Shown here: one piece after another, positions 7,956 to 31,200 of the stretch
Numbering within the stretch: the first letter of the stretch is position 1
Layout: each line of letters opens with the position of its first letter
NCBI GenBank assembly: GCA_018814355.1
Contig: JAHIZT010000046.1
Location: forward strand, 1 to 33,034
Length of the DNA stretch: 33,034 nucleotides
Origin: Candidatus Thermoplasmatota archaeon
GTDB lineage: Archaea > Thermoplasmatota > Thermoplasmata > UBA10834
Reading direction: 5' to 3'
Program-made: the position numbers and the translations under genes
The notes under the pieces: generated by a model
What the model was told of the DNA's origin: nothing
The model's input: only the letters and a program-made list of their open reading frames with translations
Databases searched by the model: none

Positions 7956-9020
7956 CTAGTCTCCTGCCATTCTCGTGCAGAATTCCGTGTACAGCTCCGC
8001 AGCCCTGACTATCTGAGACACCTCGACGTACTCATCGTTGCAGTGGCAGATGTCGTTACTTCCGGGGCCGCAAATCATCAGGACGTCGTTGGCTGGCTTG
8101 AACATGACCATTTCGGTAGCGTAGGGCACCGCGGTGACCTTCGCCTTCGGCCCGATGACGCTTTTCATCGTACGAACTGCGAGCGAATTCGGATCCGTTC
8201 CGACCGGGTCGAGCTCATGGATGATCTTCAGGTCGTATCCCTTCTTGCCGATCCTGTCCTTGACCAGCTTGAGAACCCTTTGTGTGTTCATGTGCGGCGG
8301 ATATCTCACGTCGATTTCCACTTCGCAGCTATCGGGTATGACATTGATCCTTGTGCCTCCCTTGATGGTGTCGATGCACATTGTCATCTTGTCGTTCGGA
8401 GTCCTCGATGTTGTGACGATGTCGTCCAGTCTGTATAGCATCCTGAGCATCTTCACGATCGCGTTGTCCCCCAGATGGGGCATGCTTGCGTGGGCCGATA
8501 CGCCCTTGGTGCTGAGGGTGAAGTGCAGTAGCCCCTTCTCATGAACGACTATGTCGAATTCTGTCGGCTCAGTCACCACGACTGCGGGTGCGCCCTTTAT
8601 GGTAGGACTCTTCGAAGCCGCGCCCGCACCGATCATTGTGGTCTCCTCATCAGTTGTGAAGCAGAGCGAGAACGGAACATTTGCAGCGACCAGGTTCTCG
8701 GCTGCGAGCAGCATGGCCGTGCACCCCCCTTTCATGTCGCACGTTCCTCGGCCATAGACACGATTACCAACACACTGTCCCTCGTCGAACTTCCAGCCCT
8801 CACCATGGGGTACGGTGTCGAGATGGCCAGACAGTGCGACTCCGCCCTTTCTGAACTGCGCCACTATCGCGGGGAACCTCTTGTCGCCATAGTACTTCGG
8901 CTGCAGTCCGAGCTTCTTCAGCATCGACGACACATAGTCTACCATCGGTCTCATGTCGTCCTCGGACGTGCTCTTCATGAGGACGAGGTCGGTTAGGACC
9001 TTCTTCGCCTTCTCCTTCAG
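7956..9020 (-). CDS. M20 family metallo-deacylase/peptidase (ArgE/DapE-like), probable CTG start
   Basis: The co-catalytic zinc ligands are visible, numbered from the ATG at 8978: GHLDTV (H52, D54), GRGTCDMKGG (D81), DEE (E111, E112) and a late CHCNDEYV His. The middle dimerisation domain carries KGVSAHASMPHLGDNA. The family includes acetylornithine deacetylase, succinyl-diaminopimelate desuccinylase and carboxypeptidases; the substrate is uncertain. The first ATG (8978) would remove the conserved first helix, which is encoded upstream as KEKAKKVLTDLVLMKSTSED. An in-frame TGA lies about 12 bases before the only plausible start, a CTG at 9018-9020, preceded by an AGGTGA site with a 4-base spacer. 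I therefore place the start at CTG, giving 354 residues. It lies 4 bases after the M42 stop. Confidence 0.88.
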   Translation of the reverse strand: MKEKAKKVLTDLVLMKSTSEDDMRPMVDYVSSMLKKLGLQPKYYGDKRFPAIVAQFRKGGVALSGHLDTVPHGEGWKFDEGQCVGNRVYGRGTCDMKGGCTAMLLAAENLVAANVPFSLCFTTDEETTMIGAGAASKSPTIKGAPAVVVTEPTEFDIVVHEKGLLHFTLSTKGVSAHASMPHLGDNAIVKMLRMLYRLDDIVTTSRTPNDKMTMCIDTIKGGTRINVIPDSCEVEIDVRYPPHMNTQRVLKLVKDRIGKKGYDLKIIHELDPVGTDPNSLAVRTMKSVIGPKAKVTAVPYATEMVMFKPANDVLMICGPGSNDICHCNDEYVEVSQIVRAAELYTEFCTRMAGD

Positions 9021-11293: not shown

Positions 11294-11866
11294 TCATCTG
11301 TATTGGTCTATGAGCGTCGTGAAGTCCTTCTCGAGGCTGATGCTCATCGAGGGCTGGTCGATGGCCTCGACATTCCTCTCAAGAAGCGCCAGTTCCTTCT
11401 CGCTGAACGCGTTCGGACTTATTGGTATCAGGACGGTCGAGCGGCTCTGCATGACCTGTTCGTTTATGTGCTCGGCGAACCTGAGCACTTGCTGGAACCC
11501 GTTGTTGATCACGAGATATTCGAGGCCGTCTATGAGCACGACACACCTCTTGTAGCGCTCGATGAATGATGAGATGACGGTTGCAAGGGTGCCTATGCTC
11601 GTCGGGTTGTGGTGGTCCTTGCCCGGGGTGTGGCTGAGCCACAGAATCCGGGTGTCCTTGAGCTCGAACGCCTCCCTCACCTTCTCTGGGAACTGGCGGG
11701 TTACGCACAGGCCCGGGACATCATCGGATAGGCTTGATTCGAAGAGCTTGTACGCGAGGAAGGGCTTCCGCTCTTTTACAACATAGCAAAGACCTTCCTG
11801 TATGCGGACTAAGTCGTCAGCTGGCTTGTCATCGTCAGTAATAAGCCGCCCCTCCCTTCTAGGCAT
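11294..11866 (-). CDS. DUF835 domain protein
   Basis: The 190-residue product matches DUF835, a domain found mainly in euryarchaea, often attached to PAS or kinase modules but here alone. Recognisable parts are GLCVTRQFPEKVRE, ILWLSHTPGKDHHNPTSIG, VVLIDGLEYLVINNGFQQVL and LIPISPNAFSEKELALLER. The fold resembles a RecA/P-loop-like ATPase core without a Walker A motif; that resemblance is my inference. Function is unknown. It lies just downstream of orc1/cdc6 on the same strand with a 62-base gap, which holds a possible promoter, and 75 bases upstream of gcvT. Confidence 0.8.
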   Translation of the reverse strand: MPRREGRLITDDDKPADDLVRIQEGLCYVVKERKPFLAYKLFESSLSDDVPGLCVTRQFPEKVREAFELKDTRILWLSHTPGKDHHNPTSIGTLATVISSFIERYKRCVVLIDGLEYLVINNGFQQVLRFAEHINEQVMQSRSTVLIPISPNAFSEKELALLERNVEAIDQPSMSISLEKDFTTLIDQYR

Positions 11867-11897
11867 ATGACGGAAGCGATTGTATATAAGGATTCTG

Positions 11898-11907
11898 ACT
11901 TAAAGTA
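11898..11907 (-). promoter_or_regulatory. Candidate TATA box for the DUF835 gene
   Basis: The minus strand reads TACTTTAAGT, centred about 36 bases before the ATG at 11866. A second TATATA run (11881-11888) lies too close to the ATG to serve this start. Confidence 0.3.
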
Positions 11908-26147: not shown

Positions 26148-26156
26148 TTATAAATA
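26148..26156 (+). promoter_or_regulatory. TATA box of the ribbon-helix-helix/ftsZ3 operon
   Basis: TTATAAATA matches the archaeal consensus closely. Transcription would begin near 26178, inside the first palindrome. Confidence 0.6.
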
Positions 26157-26172
26157 CTAACGAGTTCATACA

Positions 26173-26207
26173 TTCGTCAGACGAAAATGCCGTATTCGTC
26201 GGACGGC
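26173..26207. promoter_or_regulatory. Paired palindromic operator candidate
   Basis: TTCGTCAGACGAA (26173-26185) is a perfect palindrome around one central base. A degenerate copy, TTCGTCGGACGGC (26195-26207), lies 22 bases on, that is, two helical turns. The pair sits on the predicted transcription start of a gene for a double ribbon-helix-helix protein. These proteins bind short palindromes or direct repeats as dimers, so autoregulation is likely (inference). Confidence 0.55.
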
Positions 26208-26220
26208 AGAAGGTGACCAG

Positions 26221-26535
26221 ACGGTAGAATCAGAACGGGTCACAATCAGGTTGCCAGATGAGAGGATTCAGGCATTACAGGCTCTCGTTGACCAGGGCAA
26301 GTTCTCGACGATCTCCGACGCGATCCGCGCGGCGATAGATAAGTTCGTCGAGGGAGAGTTCACGCCCGAGTACATCGAGAAGATCACCGTGGAGTTACCC
26401 AAAGGCAATGTCGTCAACCTGAGGCAGCTCGTCCAGGAAGGCGACTCCGTCTCCGTCGACGACGCGATAAGGAACGCGGTGCGCGAATACATACGCAAGC
26501 GAGTGTCAAAAGCAATGGAAGAACTGGAAAGGTGA
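26221..26535 (+). CDS. Tandem ribbon-helix-helix regulator, probable ACG start
   Basis: Two ribbon-helix-helix units occur in one chain: ERVTIRLPDE...FSTISDAIRAAIDKF (residues 5-42) and EKITVELPKG...SVSVDDAIRNAVREY (53-90). The single chain may therefore behave as a dimer-like DNA-binding unit. The first unit needs the strand RVTIRLP, which lies upstream of the first canonical start (TTG at 26251). The only well-placed start is ACG at 26221, 4 bases after AGGTGA (26211-26216); GTA at 26224 is another possibility. An in-frame TAA lies at 26158-26160. The gene is just upstream of a divergent ftsZ, like the CdrS/ftsZ2 arrangement described in haloarchaea. It probably controls its own promoter and ftsZ3. 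Confidence 0.8.
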   Translation, partial: TVESERVTIRLPDERIQALQALVDQGKFSTISDAIRAAIDKFVEGEFTPEYIEKITVELPKGNVVNLRQLVQEGDSVSVDDAIRNAVREYIRKRVSKAMEELER

Positions 26536-26617: not shown

Positions 26618-27670
26618 ATGCTCGACAAGCTCATCAAGGAGGCCCTCGACAGCGGGTGCGATTTCGAAGCACACCTCACCCCGAAGATGTGCGTCATTGG
26701 TTGCGGCGGCGGAGGCTCGAACAGCGTCCACAGACTGGGCAGGCTGGAGCTCGAAGGCGTCGACACCATAGCTATCAACTCCGACAGATTCCACCTCGCG
26801 CGCACTGAAGCGGACAAGCGCCTGCTTATCGGCGAGCACATTACCAACGGGTTCGGCACCGGAGGCGATCCTGCGGTCGGCGAGAAGATGGCCTACGCCG
26901 ACATCGACAAGATCGATGCTATCGTCCGAGATTACGATGTCGTATTCATCACAGCTGGCATGGGCGGAGGCACCGGCACCGGAACAGCACCAGTCGTCGC
27001 TGAGACCGCCAAGAAGCACGGTGCGGTCGTAGTCGCTCTCGTCACACTACCATTCGACATCGAGAAGAGCAGGTTGAAGACTGCGCTCATGGGCATCGCG
27101 AAACTGAAAGGACGGGCTCATAGCACGATAATCCTAGACAACAACAAGTTGCTAGAGATAGTGCCGAAACTGCCCGTAGAGCAGGCCTTCATGGTGATGG
27201 ACCAGCTCATATCCGAAGTGATCAAAGGGATCACTGAAACGATCTGCCAAACGAGCATGATCAACCTGGACTTCGCGGACTTCCGGACCATGATGATTCA
27301 TGGCGGAGCCTCGACCGTTCTGTACGGCGAAAGTGAGGATCCAGAGAAAGTGGTGCTGGAAGCGCTCAACAACCCCTTGCTCGATGTCGACCTTGAGGGA
27401 GCAACAGGCGCCCTGATACACATCACGGGCGGCCCCTCCCTCTCCCTGAGGAAGGCCTACCAGGTCTTCAACGGGGTCACGAGCGAGCTCAGCGACCGCG
27501 CGAACGTGAAGCTAGGCGCGAGGATCGAACCGGAGTTCGGAAACAACATCAAGCTCATCGGGATCGTGACCGGGATAACCTCCATGGATTCTCCGAGGCG
27601 GTCGATCGGAATCGACGAGATCGGTTATGATCAACCAGCTGGCCTAGCTGGCATCGACATGTTAGGATGA
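26618..27670 (+). CDS. Third, divergent FtsZ paralogue
   Basis: This 350-residue protein keeps the FtsZ core: [15 protein letters not shown] (25-39), GGGTGTG (117-123) and T7 loop NLDFADFRTMM. GTP binding and subunit-activated hydrolysis are therefore expected. It departs strongly from the tandem pair: INSDRFHLART replaces the NTDAQHLL region, GEHITNGFGTGGDPAVGEK replaces [15 protein letters not shown], and no GLDFIK-type tail is present. It is not CetZ, which lacks NLDFxD. The ATG at 26585 is in frame, but 26618 has a G-rich Shine-Dalgarno site and fits the usual FtsZ N-terminus. It follows the ribbon-helix-helix gene with an 82-base gap, probably on one transcript. Confidence 0.93.
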   Translation: MLDKLIKEALDSGCDFEAHLTPKMCVIGCGGGGSNSVHRLGRLELEGVDTIAINSDRFHLARTEADKRLLIGEHITNGFGTGGDPAVGEKMAYADIDKIDAIVRDYDVVFITAGMGGGTGTGTAPVVAETAKKHGAVVVALVTLPFDIEKSRLKTALMGIAKLKGRAHSTIILDNNKLLEIVPKLPVEQAFMVMDQLISEVIKGITETICQTSMINLDFADFRTMMIHGGASTVLYGESEDPEKVVLEALNNPLLDVDLEGATGALIHITGGPSLSLRKAYQVFNGVTSELSDRANVKLGARIEPEFGNNIKLIGIVTGITSMDSPRRSIGIDEIGYDQPAGLAGIDMLG

Positions 27671-27800
27671 ACTAATTCCCGTTCCATGAAGCTTACCCGT
27701 CCATCCCGTGCAGGATGGCGGTGTTCACTTCCAGCTTCATCGATCCGACTCGCGGCGCCCTCGCGGGTGCCGTGGAGGTCAAATCTCCACAGGCGTTTAA
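27671..27800 (-). ncRNA. Candidate TnpB guide RNA (omega/reRNA) region
   Basis: In related elements the guide RNA overlaps the 3' end of tnpB and runs past its stop to the element right end. Here that stretch contains a 6-bp hairpin, CCATCC/GGATGG, around the spacer TGCACG on the minus strand (27702-27719), followed by GGAACGGGAATTAG. The exact ends, and so the guide, cannot be fixed from the sequence. Confidence 0.3.
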
Positions 27801-28913
27801 GGTCTCCGTGGAACTCACGGCGACCAGATTGAGAGCCGCGTTCAGGTCTCTGTCGAGGACCAGTCCGCAGTTCTTGCACTTGTAAGTCCTCTCAGACAAG
27901 GGCATCTCTTTCCTGATGTGGCCACACAAGGAGCATCGCTTCGTTGACGGGTAGAACCTTGGTGCCACAGTCAAATGGCTCCCGTAACACCGGCACTTGT
28001 ACTCGAGCTGCCGGCGGAACTCCCCCATTCCCACGTCTGAAATGGCTCGCGCCAGACGCCGGTCCTTTCCCATACCTCGCACATTGAGGTCTTCGATGAC
28101 GATCTCGCCGTGGTTTTTGGCGAGCTTCGTCGTCGCCTTGTGCAAGGCGTCCCTGCGAACGTTTCCAATGCGCCAGTAAACCTTCGCCAATCTGTCAGCG
28201 GATTTCTTCCGATTGTTGCTTCCTTCATGCCTCCTATGCAGCTCCTTTGCGAGTCTGCGTAGCTTCTGCAGGTGAGAGTGTAAGGGCTTAGGGTTCTCGA
28301 AAACGTGTCCGTCTGAGAGAGTCACCATGTGATATACGCCGAGGTCTACACCTACCGCAGGACCCGATGGCGATTGGGGATTTGGAGCATTCAGTTCGAC
28401 CGTGAAGGATACGAACCACCGGTTGGTGTCTCGGCTGACGGTCGCGCGGAGGATTCGCCCATCGAAGATTGCAGGTTCTTTGACGCGCACGTGCCCGATG
28501 CGGGGAAGGACAACGTGAGTGCCTTCTGCGCGTATAGCGCCTGCTGTGAATGCGAATGCATCCCTCCCCCTTCCCTTCTTCTTGAAATTCGGGAGCCGAG
28601 CTTTCCGGCCTGCCTTCCGCGCCTTCCGGTAGAGAATATATGCGGAGTCGAGGTTGCGGAGGGCTTCCTGTGGGATGCACTTGGATACTTCGTACATCCA
28701 TGGGAAATCCGTCTTCTTGAGGACGTTTAGGCGGCGGTGCTGCTCGATGGCATTCGTGAACCGCTCGTCACCCTGCTTTTCAAGGTACAGTCGCTGGCGC
28801 TCGTAGAGAGCCCAGTTCCACGCGAACCTGGTGACCCCAGCGCACTTGGCGAAGAGAGTCCGCTGTGCGTTGTTTGGCTTCAATTCGAAGCGGTGCGCTT
28901 GGTTAATGATCAT
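27693..28913 (-). CDS. tnpB: RNA-guided endonuclease TnpB (IS605 OrfB)
   Basis: The 406-residue protein is an intact TnpB. The wedge/REC N-terminus begins with HRFELKPNNAQRTLFAKCAG. The RuvC catalytic residues are D190 in GVDLGV, E274 in VIEDLNV and D356 in DRDLNAALN, with a zinc finger C327/C330/C346/C349 between the last two. The family cuts DNA next to a short target-adjacent motif, directed by an RNA from the element's right end. The frame extends up to 29006, but the ATG at 28913 has GGAGGT 8 bases upstream and matches the family start. The nearest neighbours are ftsZ3 and trmJ; no inactivating change is visible. Confidence 0.93.
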   Translation of the reverse strand: MIINQAHRFELKPNNAQRTLFAKCAGVTRFAWNWALYERQRLYLEKQGDERFTNAIEQHRRLNVLKKTDFPWMYEVSKCIPQEALRNLDSAYILYRKARKAGRKARLPNFKKKGRGRDAFAFTAGAIRAEGTHVVLPRIGHVRVKEPAIFDGRILRATVSRDTNRWFVSFTVELNAPNPQSPSGPAVGVDLGVYHMVTLSDGHVFENPKPLHSHLQKLRRLAKELHRRHEGSNNRKKSADRLAKVYWRIGNVRRDALHKATTKLAKNHGEIVIEDLNVRGMGKDRRLARAISDVGMGEFRRQLEYKCRCYGSHLTVAPRFYPSTKRCSLCGHIRKEMPLSERTYKCKNCGLVLDRDLNAALNLVAVSSTETLNACGDLTSTAPARAPRVGSMKLEVNTAILHGMDG

Positions 28914-29010
28914 CAGCTGAGACCTCCAGGGTGGAAACACCGCTGGGCCGTGTCGTAGTCCGTTCCCGTCCCCCAAGCCACATCCGCTAGTCTCACGCCC
29001 ATTCATGGCC

Positions 29011-30631: not shown

Positions 30632-31200
30632 TACCGCAGTTTCCTCTGAAACTTGATATCCGCGCATCCTGGTATCCCAGTTGCATGAGGATCGCCGTCA
30701 CCGGCACTCCGGGGGTGGGAAAGACCAGTGCATGCTCCCTCGTCAGGAGGATGCTGGTTCTGCACGTCAACGACCTTGTCGAGAAGTTCGATGCAGCCTC
30801 TGGCTATGATCGAAAGCGCAAGACCCGAGAGGTGAACGTCACCAAGCTCTCCAAGGAGATATCGAAGCTGGAAGGCGACATGGTCCTTGAGGGCCACTTC
30901 TCGCATATGCTCAAACCTGATGTCGCTGTCGTGCTGCGCTGCTCCCCTGCCGTGCTTGAGAAGCGCCTTCGCAAGAAAGGTTGGGACGAGAAGAAGATTC
31001 GGGAGAATGTCGAGGCCGAAGCCGTCGACGTAGTCCTCATAGAGGCGTTGGAGAACGCGGGTGAAGTGTGCGAGATAGACACGACCCACCTGAAGCCGAG
31101 CCAGGTCGCCAAAGCCATCGAGGACATCATATCTGGAGAAAGACAGAAATATCGTGTTGGTAATGTTGACTGGAGCGAGGAGGTCCTGAGCTGGTTCTAG
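30628..31200 (+). CDS. Adenylate kinase of the AK6/Fap7 type
   Basis: This P-loop NMP kinase has MRIAVTGTPGVGKTSA followed by HVNDLVEKF and DMVLEGHFSHML. These features fit the AK6/Fap7/hCINAP group, whose members work in small-subunit ribosome maturation and have adenylate kinase activity. An ATGA overlap with truA gives a start at 30628 and a 19-residue N-terminal extension. The family normally starts at the ATG at 30685, yet neither has a good Shine-Dalgarno site. Its 3' end contains the Shine-Dalgarno site and CTG of the next gene. Confidence 0.86.
   Translation: MIPQFPLKLDIRASWYPSCMRIAVTGTPGVGKTSACSLVRRMLVLHVNDLVEKFDAASGYDRKRKTREVNVTKLSKEISKLEGDMVLEGHFSHMLKPDVAVVLRCSPAVLEKRLRKKGWDEKKIRENVEAEAVDVVLIEALENAGEVCEIDTTHLKPSQVAKAIEDIISGERQKYRVGNVDWSEEVLSWF

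Follow-up and report, generated by a model that had tools for sequence, protein, structure and literature searches.

Start region of the gene

Where does translation begin in a gene whose DNA-contacting strand is encoded ahead of its first canonical start codon? The question is raised by a gene for a ribbon-helix-helix (RHH) regulator in a stretch of 33,034 nt from Candidatus Thermoplasmatota archaeon, the whole of which is termed the window here. The sequence-only reading of this locus had suggested an ACG start or a lost start, with initiation at GTA 26224 or a +1 frameshift from ATG 26187 as further options. The features on which the analysis draws are the following.

26149-26156, plus strand: TATA box (TATAAATA), identical in all 8 sequences of the alignment, one of which is the window
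26173-26185, plus strand: operator-like palindrome 1 (TTCGTCAGACGAA; GTCNGAC core at 26176), from core conservation
26187-26216, plus strand: upstream ORF, ATG to TGA, 9 codons, unconserved (absent from relatives) and judged incidental
26198-26204, plus strand: operator-like palindrome 2 (GTCGGAC core), 22 nt from palindrome 1, from spacing conservation
26211-26216, plus strand: Shine-Dalgarno (SD) sequence AGGTGA, able to pair with the 16S 3' end ...GGATCACCTCCT
26221-26223, plus strand: probable ACG start codon in the place of the ancestral ATG, from ortholog start columns and DNA alignment
26221-26535, plus strand: cdrS-like RHH regulator, ACG as first of 104 codons, then stop TGA, from Pfam RHH_1 and orthologs
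26618-27670, plus strand: ftsZ, next gene downstream, from Pfam Tubulin (PF00091, E=2.4e-37) and FtsZ_C (PF12327, E=2.2e-21)

The layout described in the earlier reading was confirmed at each point. The stop that closes the frame at 26158 is TAA 26158-26160, past which the frame remains open up to the stop at 26533-26535; the first in-frame ATG, GTG or TTG after this TAA is TTG 26251, so that RVTIRLP, coded from 26236, is indeed encoded 5' of the first canonical start. AGGTGA (26211-26216) does precede the in-frame ACG (26221-26223) by 4 nt, with CCAG (26217-26220) as the spacer and GTA (26224-26226) as the following codon.

Gene identity and genomic context

Residues 6-44 of the product match RHH_1 (PF01402, E=1.4e-10), and its conservation spans both halves of the protein. 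Examined for a second RHH fold, as expected of an RHH tandem repeat, the C-terminal half gave weak matches to the CopG-type chains 5ceg and 6x0a (E 0.05-0.08), and the AlphaFold2 model of the protein is poor (pLDDT 53.7). Orthologs were found at E<=1e-15 in 256 of 400 genomes of the class Thermoplasmata, the close named relatives being Thermoplasmata or Euryarchaeota metagenome assemblies. In 47 of 51 cdrS loci, a same-strand FtsZ gene lies no more than 500 nt downstream; of the remaining loci, two are on contigs that break off too early, one (L138) has no FtsZ within 1.5 kb, and another (L141) has an FtsZ match elsewhere only. Beyond ftsZ in the window, a 437-aa ORF on the minus strand (27693-29006) has, by eye, the look of a transposon protein of the TnpB/OrfB type bearing a CxxC zinc motif.

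This arrangement resembles the cdrS-ftsZ2 operon of Halobacterium and Haloferax as set out in the portions of PMC7439475 and PMC8406309 drawn on here, in which a small RHH_1 protein is likewise encoded directly 5' of a same-strand ftsZ under a TATA promoter. Haloarchaeal CdrS (cell division regulator, short), cotranscribed with ftsZ2 and controlling division genes, however, has a single domain and 55 residues, whereas the window protein has about 104 residues with a conserved second half (KITVELPKGNVV...). Since it is about twice as long, the protein is named CdrS-like rather than CdrS, and, as judged from its domain match and orthologs, the window gene is a CdrS-like ribbon-helix-helix regulator. 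The two also differ in their start codon, in that the same portion of PMC8406309 gives Haloferax cdrS an ATG start.

Start codons across orthologs

In a DNA alignment of eight sequences including the window, the ACG aligns to the ATG column of 7 of 7 relatives. To extend the comparison, start codons were assigned at 144 distinct orthologous loci, comprising the better-scoring class matches and the named loci, with lower-scoring matches left out. The automatic count returned 133 ATG (77 at -5, 54 at -6, one at -7 and one at -11), 6 GTG and 1 TTG at -5, two cases of 'GTG at -8' and two of 'none'. The last four were relabelled by hand: both 'GTG at -8' loci (L049 of G071 and L114 of G038) became ACG at -5, one 'none' is the window itself (ACG), and the other (L056 of G034) was assigned GTG at -16 by eye. 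The final tally is 133 ATG, 7 GTG, 1 TTG and 3 ACG, so that the start is canonical at 141 of 144 loci and all three exceptions read ACG. The placing of the window ACG in this column thus goes beyond coincidence. One clade consists of GTG-start cdrS genes (loci L155, L156, L158, L159 and L165). A stop codon at -4, ending one base before the start, was seen in 2 of 3 ACG, 4 of 7 GTG and 15 of 133 ATG orthologs, which are small numbers from related species.

Besides the window, the ACG carriers are two genomes of the Candidatus Sysuiplasma clade (G038 and G071), which belong to another family, of which 8 genomes were searched. Two further members of their genus, G056 and G085 (the latter via a named duplicate, L050), keep ATG; in the order of the window, the gene is present in 15 of 21 genomes and only the window has ACG. 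By parsimony, ATG would thus have changed to ACG at least twice independently, because ACG occurs both in the window and in two Sysuiplasma species whose sisters have ATG. Both Sysuiplasma genes also contain, within the SD and three codons ahead of the ACG, an in-frame GTG that by its position could be a rival start for them. Among the options of the sequence-only reading, the ACG start is the one best supported, by its place in the ancestral start column and by its recurrence in Sysuiplasma.

The other candidate starts fared poorly, and the GTA start, the TTG start and the frameshift from ATG 26187 were rejected on grounds of conservation. GTA 26224 is merely the second codon, written GTG, GTC or GTA in relatives, and TTG 26251 is a leucine codon for which relatives write TTG, TTA, CTC, CTA and others. 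This bears on the possibility that the start has been lost, so that the gene either became a pseudogene recently or yields no more than a shortened protein begun at TTG 26251. The lack of any canonical start upstream speaks for such a loss, but a start at TTG 26251 would drop the DNA-contacting strand, this codon is not kept as TTG in relatives, and the genome has no second orthologous copy, its two other matches being distant paralogs (24% and 33% identity). Moreover, Nei-Gojobori estimates point to strong purifying selection. The window gene differs from its nearest relative (G007) by a Ka of 0.0178 and a Ks of 0.98, with all 104 codons open, and from G006, G003 and G004 by Ka values of 0.025-0.031 and Ks values of 0.95-1.43. 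By these substitution rates, the intact frame and the retained TATA box, paired operator cores and neighbouring ftsZ, the window gene is not decaying; together with the recurrence of ACG in Sysuiplasma, the rates make the loss of the start quite improbable. For the two Sysuiplasma genes, both with ACG, Ka is 0.0247 and Ks 1.27. Should they have inherited their ACG from a common ancestor, strong selection would have acted on a gene with that start while synonymous sites changed more than once on average. The properties taken here to mark a functional non-AUG start, namely a homologous start position, an open frame and purifying selection, were all found.

Shine-Dalgarno strength

In the order of the window, 6 of 6 16S loci examined end in GGATCACCTCCT at the 3' side; a search for the 16S of the window genome itself did not find it, and the anti-SD was read directly in relatives. 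The predicted SD duplex energy of the window gene is -8.8 kcal/mol, versus -6.3, -5.5, -7.2 and -5.8 in four ATG sisters of the same genus. The Sysuiplasma ACG genes reach -13.4 and -15.2 kcal/mol, and six ATG loci from the same family lie between -6.5 and -11.5. The SDs of these two ACG genes are stronger than those of all 133 ATG orthologs, while an SD as strong as that of the window occurs in 17-20 of the 133, depending on the setting. Comparing the 11 non-ATG with the 133 ATG orthologs yielded p values of 4e-5 to 1e-4 over twelve settings, uncorrected for kinship. Start-region RNA structure gave no clear separation between ACG and ATG genes among the eight folded. A coupling of stronger SDs to the non-AUG starts GUG and UUG has been described by Belinky et al. 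2017 (PMC5622118), and the window gene similarly combines a weak start codon with a stronger SD. In the part of that study drawn on here, which covers annotated genes in 36 genome triplets, the switches from AUG lead to GUG, UUG, CUG and AUU; ACG, as in the window, is absent from them.

In the alignment, the GGCGG of the sisters has become GGTGA in the window, and the two SD-improving substitutions are unique to the window genome among the eight aligned. These changes are relevant to whether the true codon is ATG, with T read as C in assembly or sequencing. The window base comes from a single draft assembly, and one T to C difference (26222) makes the case. The SD substitutions next to this codon are nevertheless just as specific to the window genome, ACG recurs in two further assemblies, and the other starts of the window give no sign of such errors: of 34 genes of the window genome that were compared, the 19 with a start column common to all relatives are canonical without exception (19/19), the other 15 comprising 9 without a shared column, including the cdrS-like gene, which were read by eye, and 6 with fewer than two aligned relatives. 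An error at this base is accordingly an unlikely explanation.

Promoter, operator and upstream ORF

The 100 nt before the start contain a GTCNGAC core in 138 of 142 orthologs, versus 1.5% of shuffles. Two or more cores are present in 99 orthologs, and in 85 of these 99 they lie 22 nt apart; both cores of the window are intact, at 26176 and 26198. The conservation of these paired palindromes upstream of cdrS-like genes across the class suggests that they are likely an operator, and, because they are conserved at the promoter, we infer that the protein represses its own gene.

The ATG at 26187 lies in another frame than the gene and runs to TGA 26214-26216. That its 9-codon frame ends at TGA 26214 speaks for recoding, in which translation would start at this ATG and shift by +1 at AGG-TGA-C to enter the frame of the gene. 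Relatives, however, have neither the ATG nor the TGA and start directly at the homologous ATG, and an upstream ORF that ends close to the start arises easily by chance, as in 50 of 133 ATG orthologs (27 with an ATG). We give this proposal almost no credence. The same ORF could instead be translated up to its stop, with ribosomes restarting at the ACG 4 nt further on and thereby aiding a weak codon. The stop does adjoin the ACG, and of the eight aligned sequences only that of the window has ATG 26187, the TGA and the ACG; yet both Sysuiplasma ACG genes are without such an ORF, and ORFs of this kind are not above the rate seen in ATG orthologs. Reinitiation was therefore rejected as very improbable.

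Other starts in the window and relatives

Within 431,180 sampled bases of the window genome, 64 genes have homologs in the compared stretches, many of them inside the window. The 27 automatic start flags among these 64 genes include short conserved leaders and were judged by eye. A scan of starts around cdrS flagged 1 of 10 evaluated genes in G038 and 3 of 10 in G071 (codons CTG, GCG, GTT and GTC), which are probably misplaced columns.

On the plus strand, a CDP-alcohol phosphatidyltransferase gene (PF01066; loci L262-L277) whose start region is 31179-31193 and which runs to 31808 shows CTG at 31191-31193, preceded by an invariant GGAGGT. Of the 16 genomes of the order with this gene, 13 have CTG as the start codon and 3 have TTG; in one of the 16 (G015, L271) an in-frame TGA directly precedes the CTG. 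An M20-family peptidase gene (7962-9020, minus strand; loci L278-L297) has CTG at 9020-9018 behind AGGTGA (AGGTGATACT-CTG), the next in-frame canonical start lying 14 codons downstream; in this column several relatives have ATG or TTG, others having an in-frame GTG three codons upstream, and one copy (L283, G007:C72) carries an in-frame TAG near the start. A DUF835 protein gene (about 11296-11899, minus strand) presents no canonical start common to relatives; an ATT behind GGGAGGG occupies the same column in the window and G007, but the window also offers an ATG further upstream. Given the CTG starts of the phosphatidyltransferase and the peptidase, near-cognate starts probably extend beyond cdrS here.

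Discussion

We consider it likely that the CdrS-like regulator has a functional ACG start, with an output that is probably reduced and partly offset by the better SD. Because ACG stands in the ATG column and has replaced ATG in two distant relatives as well, initiation at ACG is probable in these archaea. Under this reading, the TATA promoter, overlapping the probable operator of the gene itself, would drive transcription, with ftsZ following. The ATG start would have mutated to ACG in the window lineage, and the strengthened SD AAGGTGA, 4 nt upstream, would pair with the 16S 3' end GGATCACCTCC and position the ribosome. The methionyl initiator tRNA (anticodon CAU) would then start at ACG, for which it forms a C-A mismatch at the middle position, yielding a product that begins Met-VESE-RVTIRLP. 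The first residue would thus be Met, output would fall below that of ATG, and autorepression would buffer it; low-efficiency initiation, as the earlier reading had put it, may suit a regulator. With regard to an altered initiator tRNA, considered as an alternative, the 40 sampled pieces of the window genome showed one tRNA-Met (anticodon CAT), and one SUI1 match was found for aIF1.

Eukaryotes, chloroplasts and bacteria also initiate at near-cognate codons (ACG, CUG, AUU), which the usual initiator tRNA reads with the aid of the mRNA context, and the literature, as far as drawn on here, documents ACG initiation in eukaryotes and chloroplasts. The window gene would share with these cases a non-AUG codon read in this way; the ACG case described here is archaeal. 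A search of the open-access literature, with subscription papers mostly outside it, found no report of an archaeal ACG start. ACG is outside the start list of NCBI table 11, and gene callers limited to ATG, GTG and TTG would truncate the gene, dropping the DNA-contacting strand.

The haloarchaeal counterpart of this gene could not be deleted, according to the portion of PMC8406309 considered here. A broader and more tentative proposal, which we regard as possible but somewhat doubtful, is that ATG has been repeatedly and stably replaced by ACG in cdrS of Thermoplasmata, selected as a translational attenuator in which the SD would set output and the protein would repress its own promoter, as part of a wider relaxed start choice (CTG elsewhere in the window) in archaea with eukaryote-like initiation factors. 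The recurrence of ACG at one orthologous position, together with a stronger SD, offers a clean natural test of the strictness of start-codon selection by aIF1/aIF2 in archaea.
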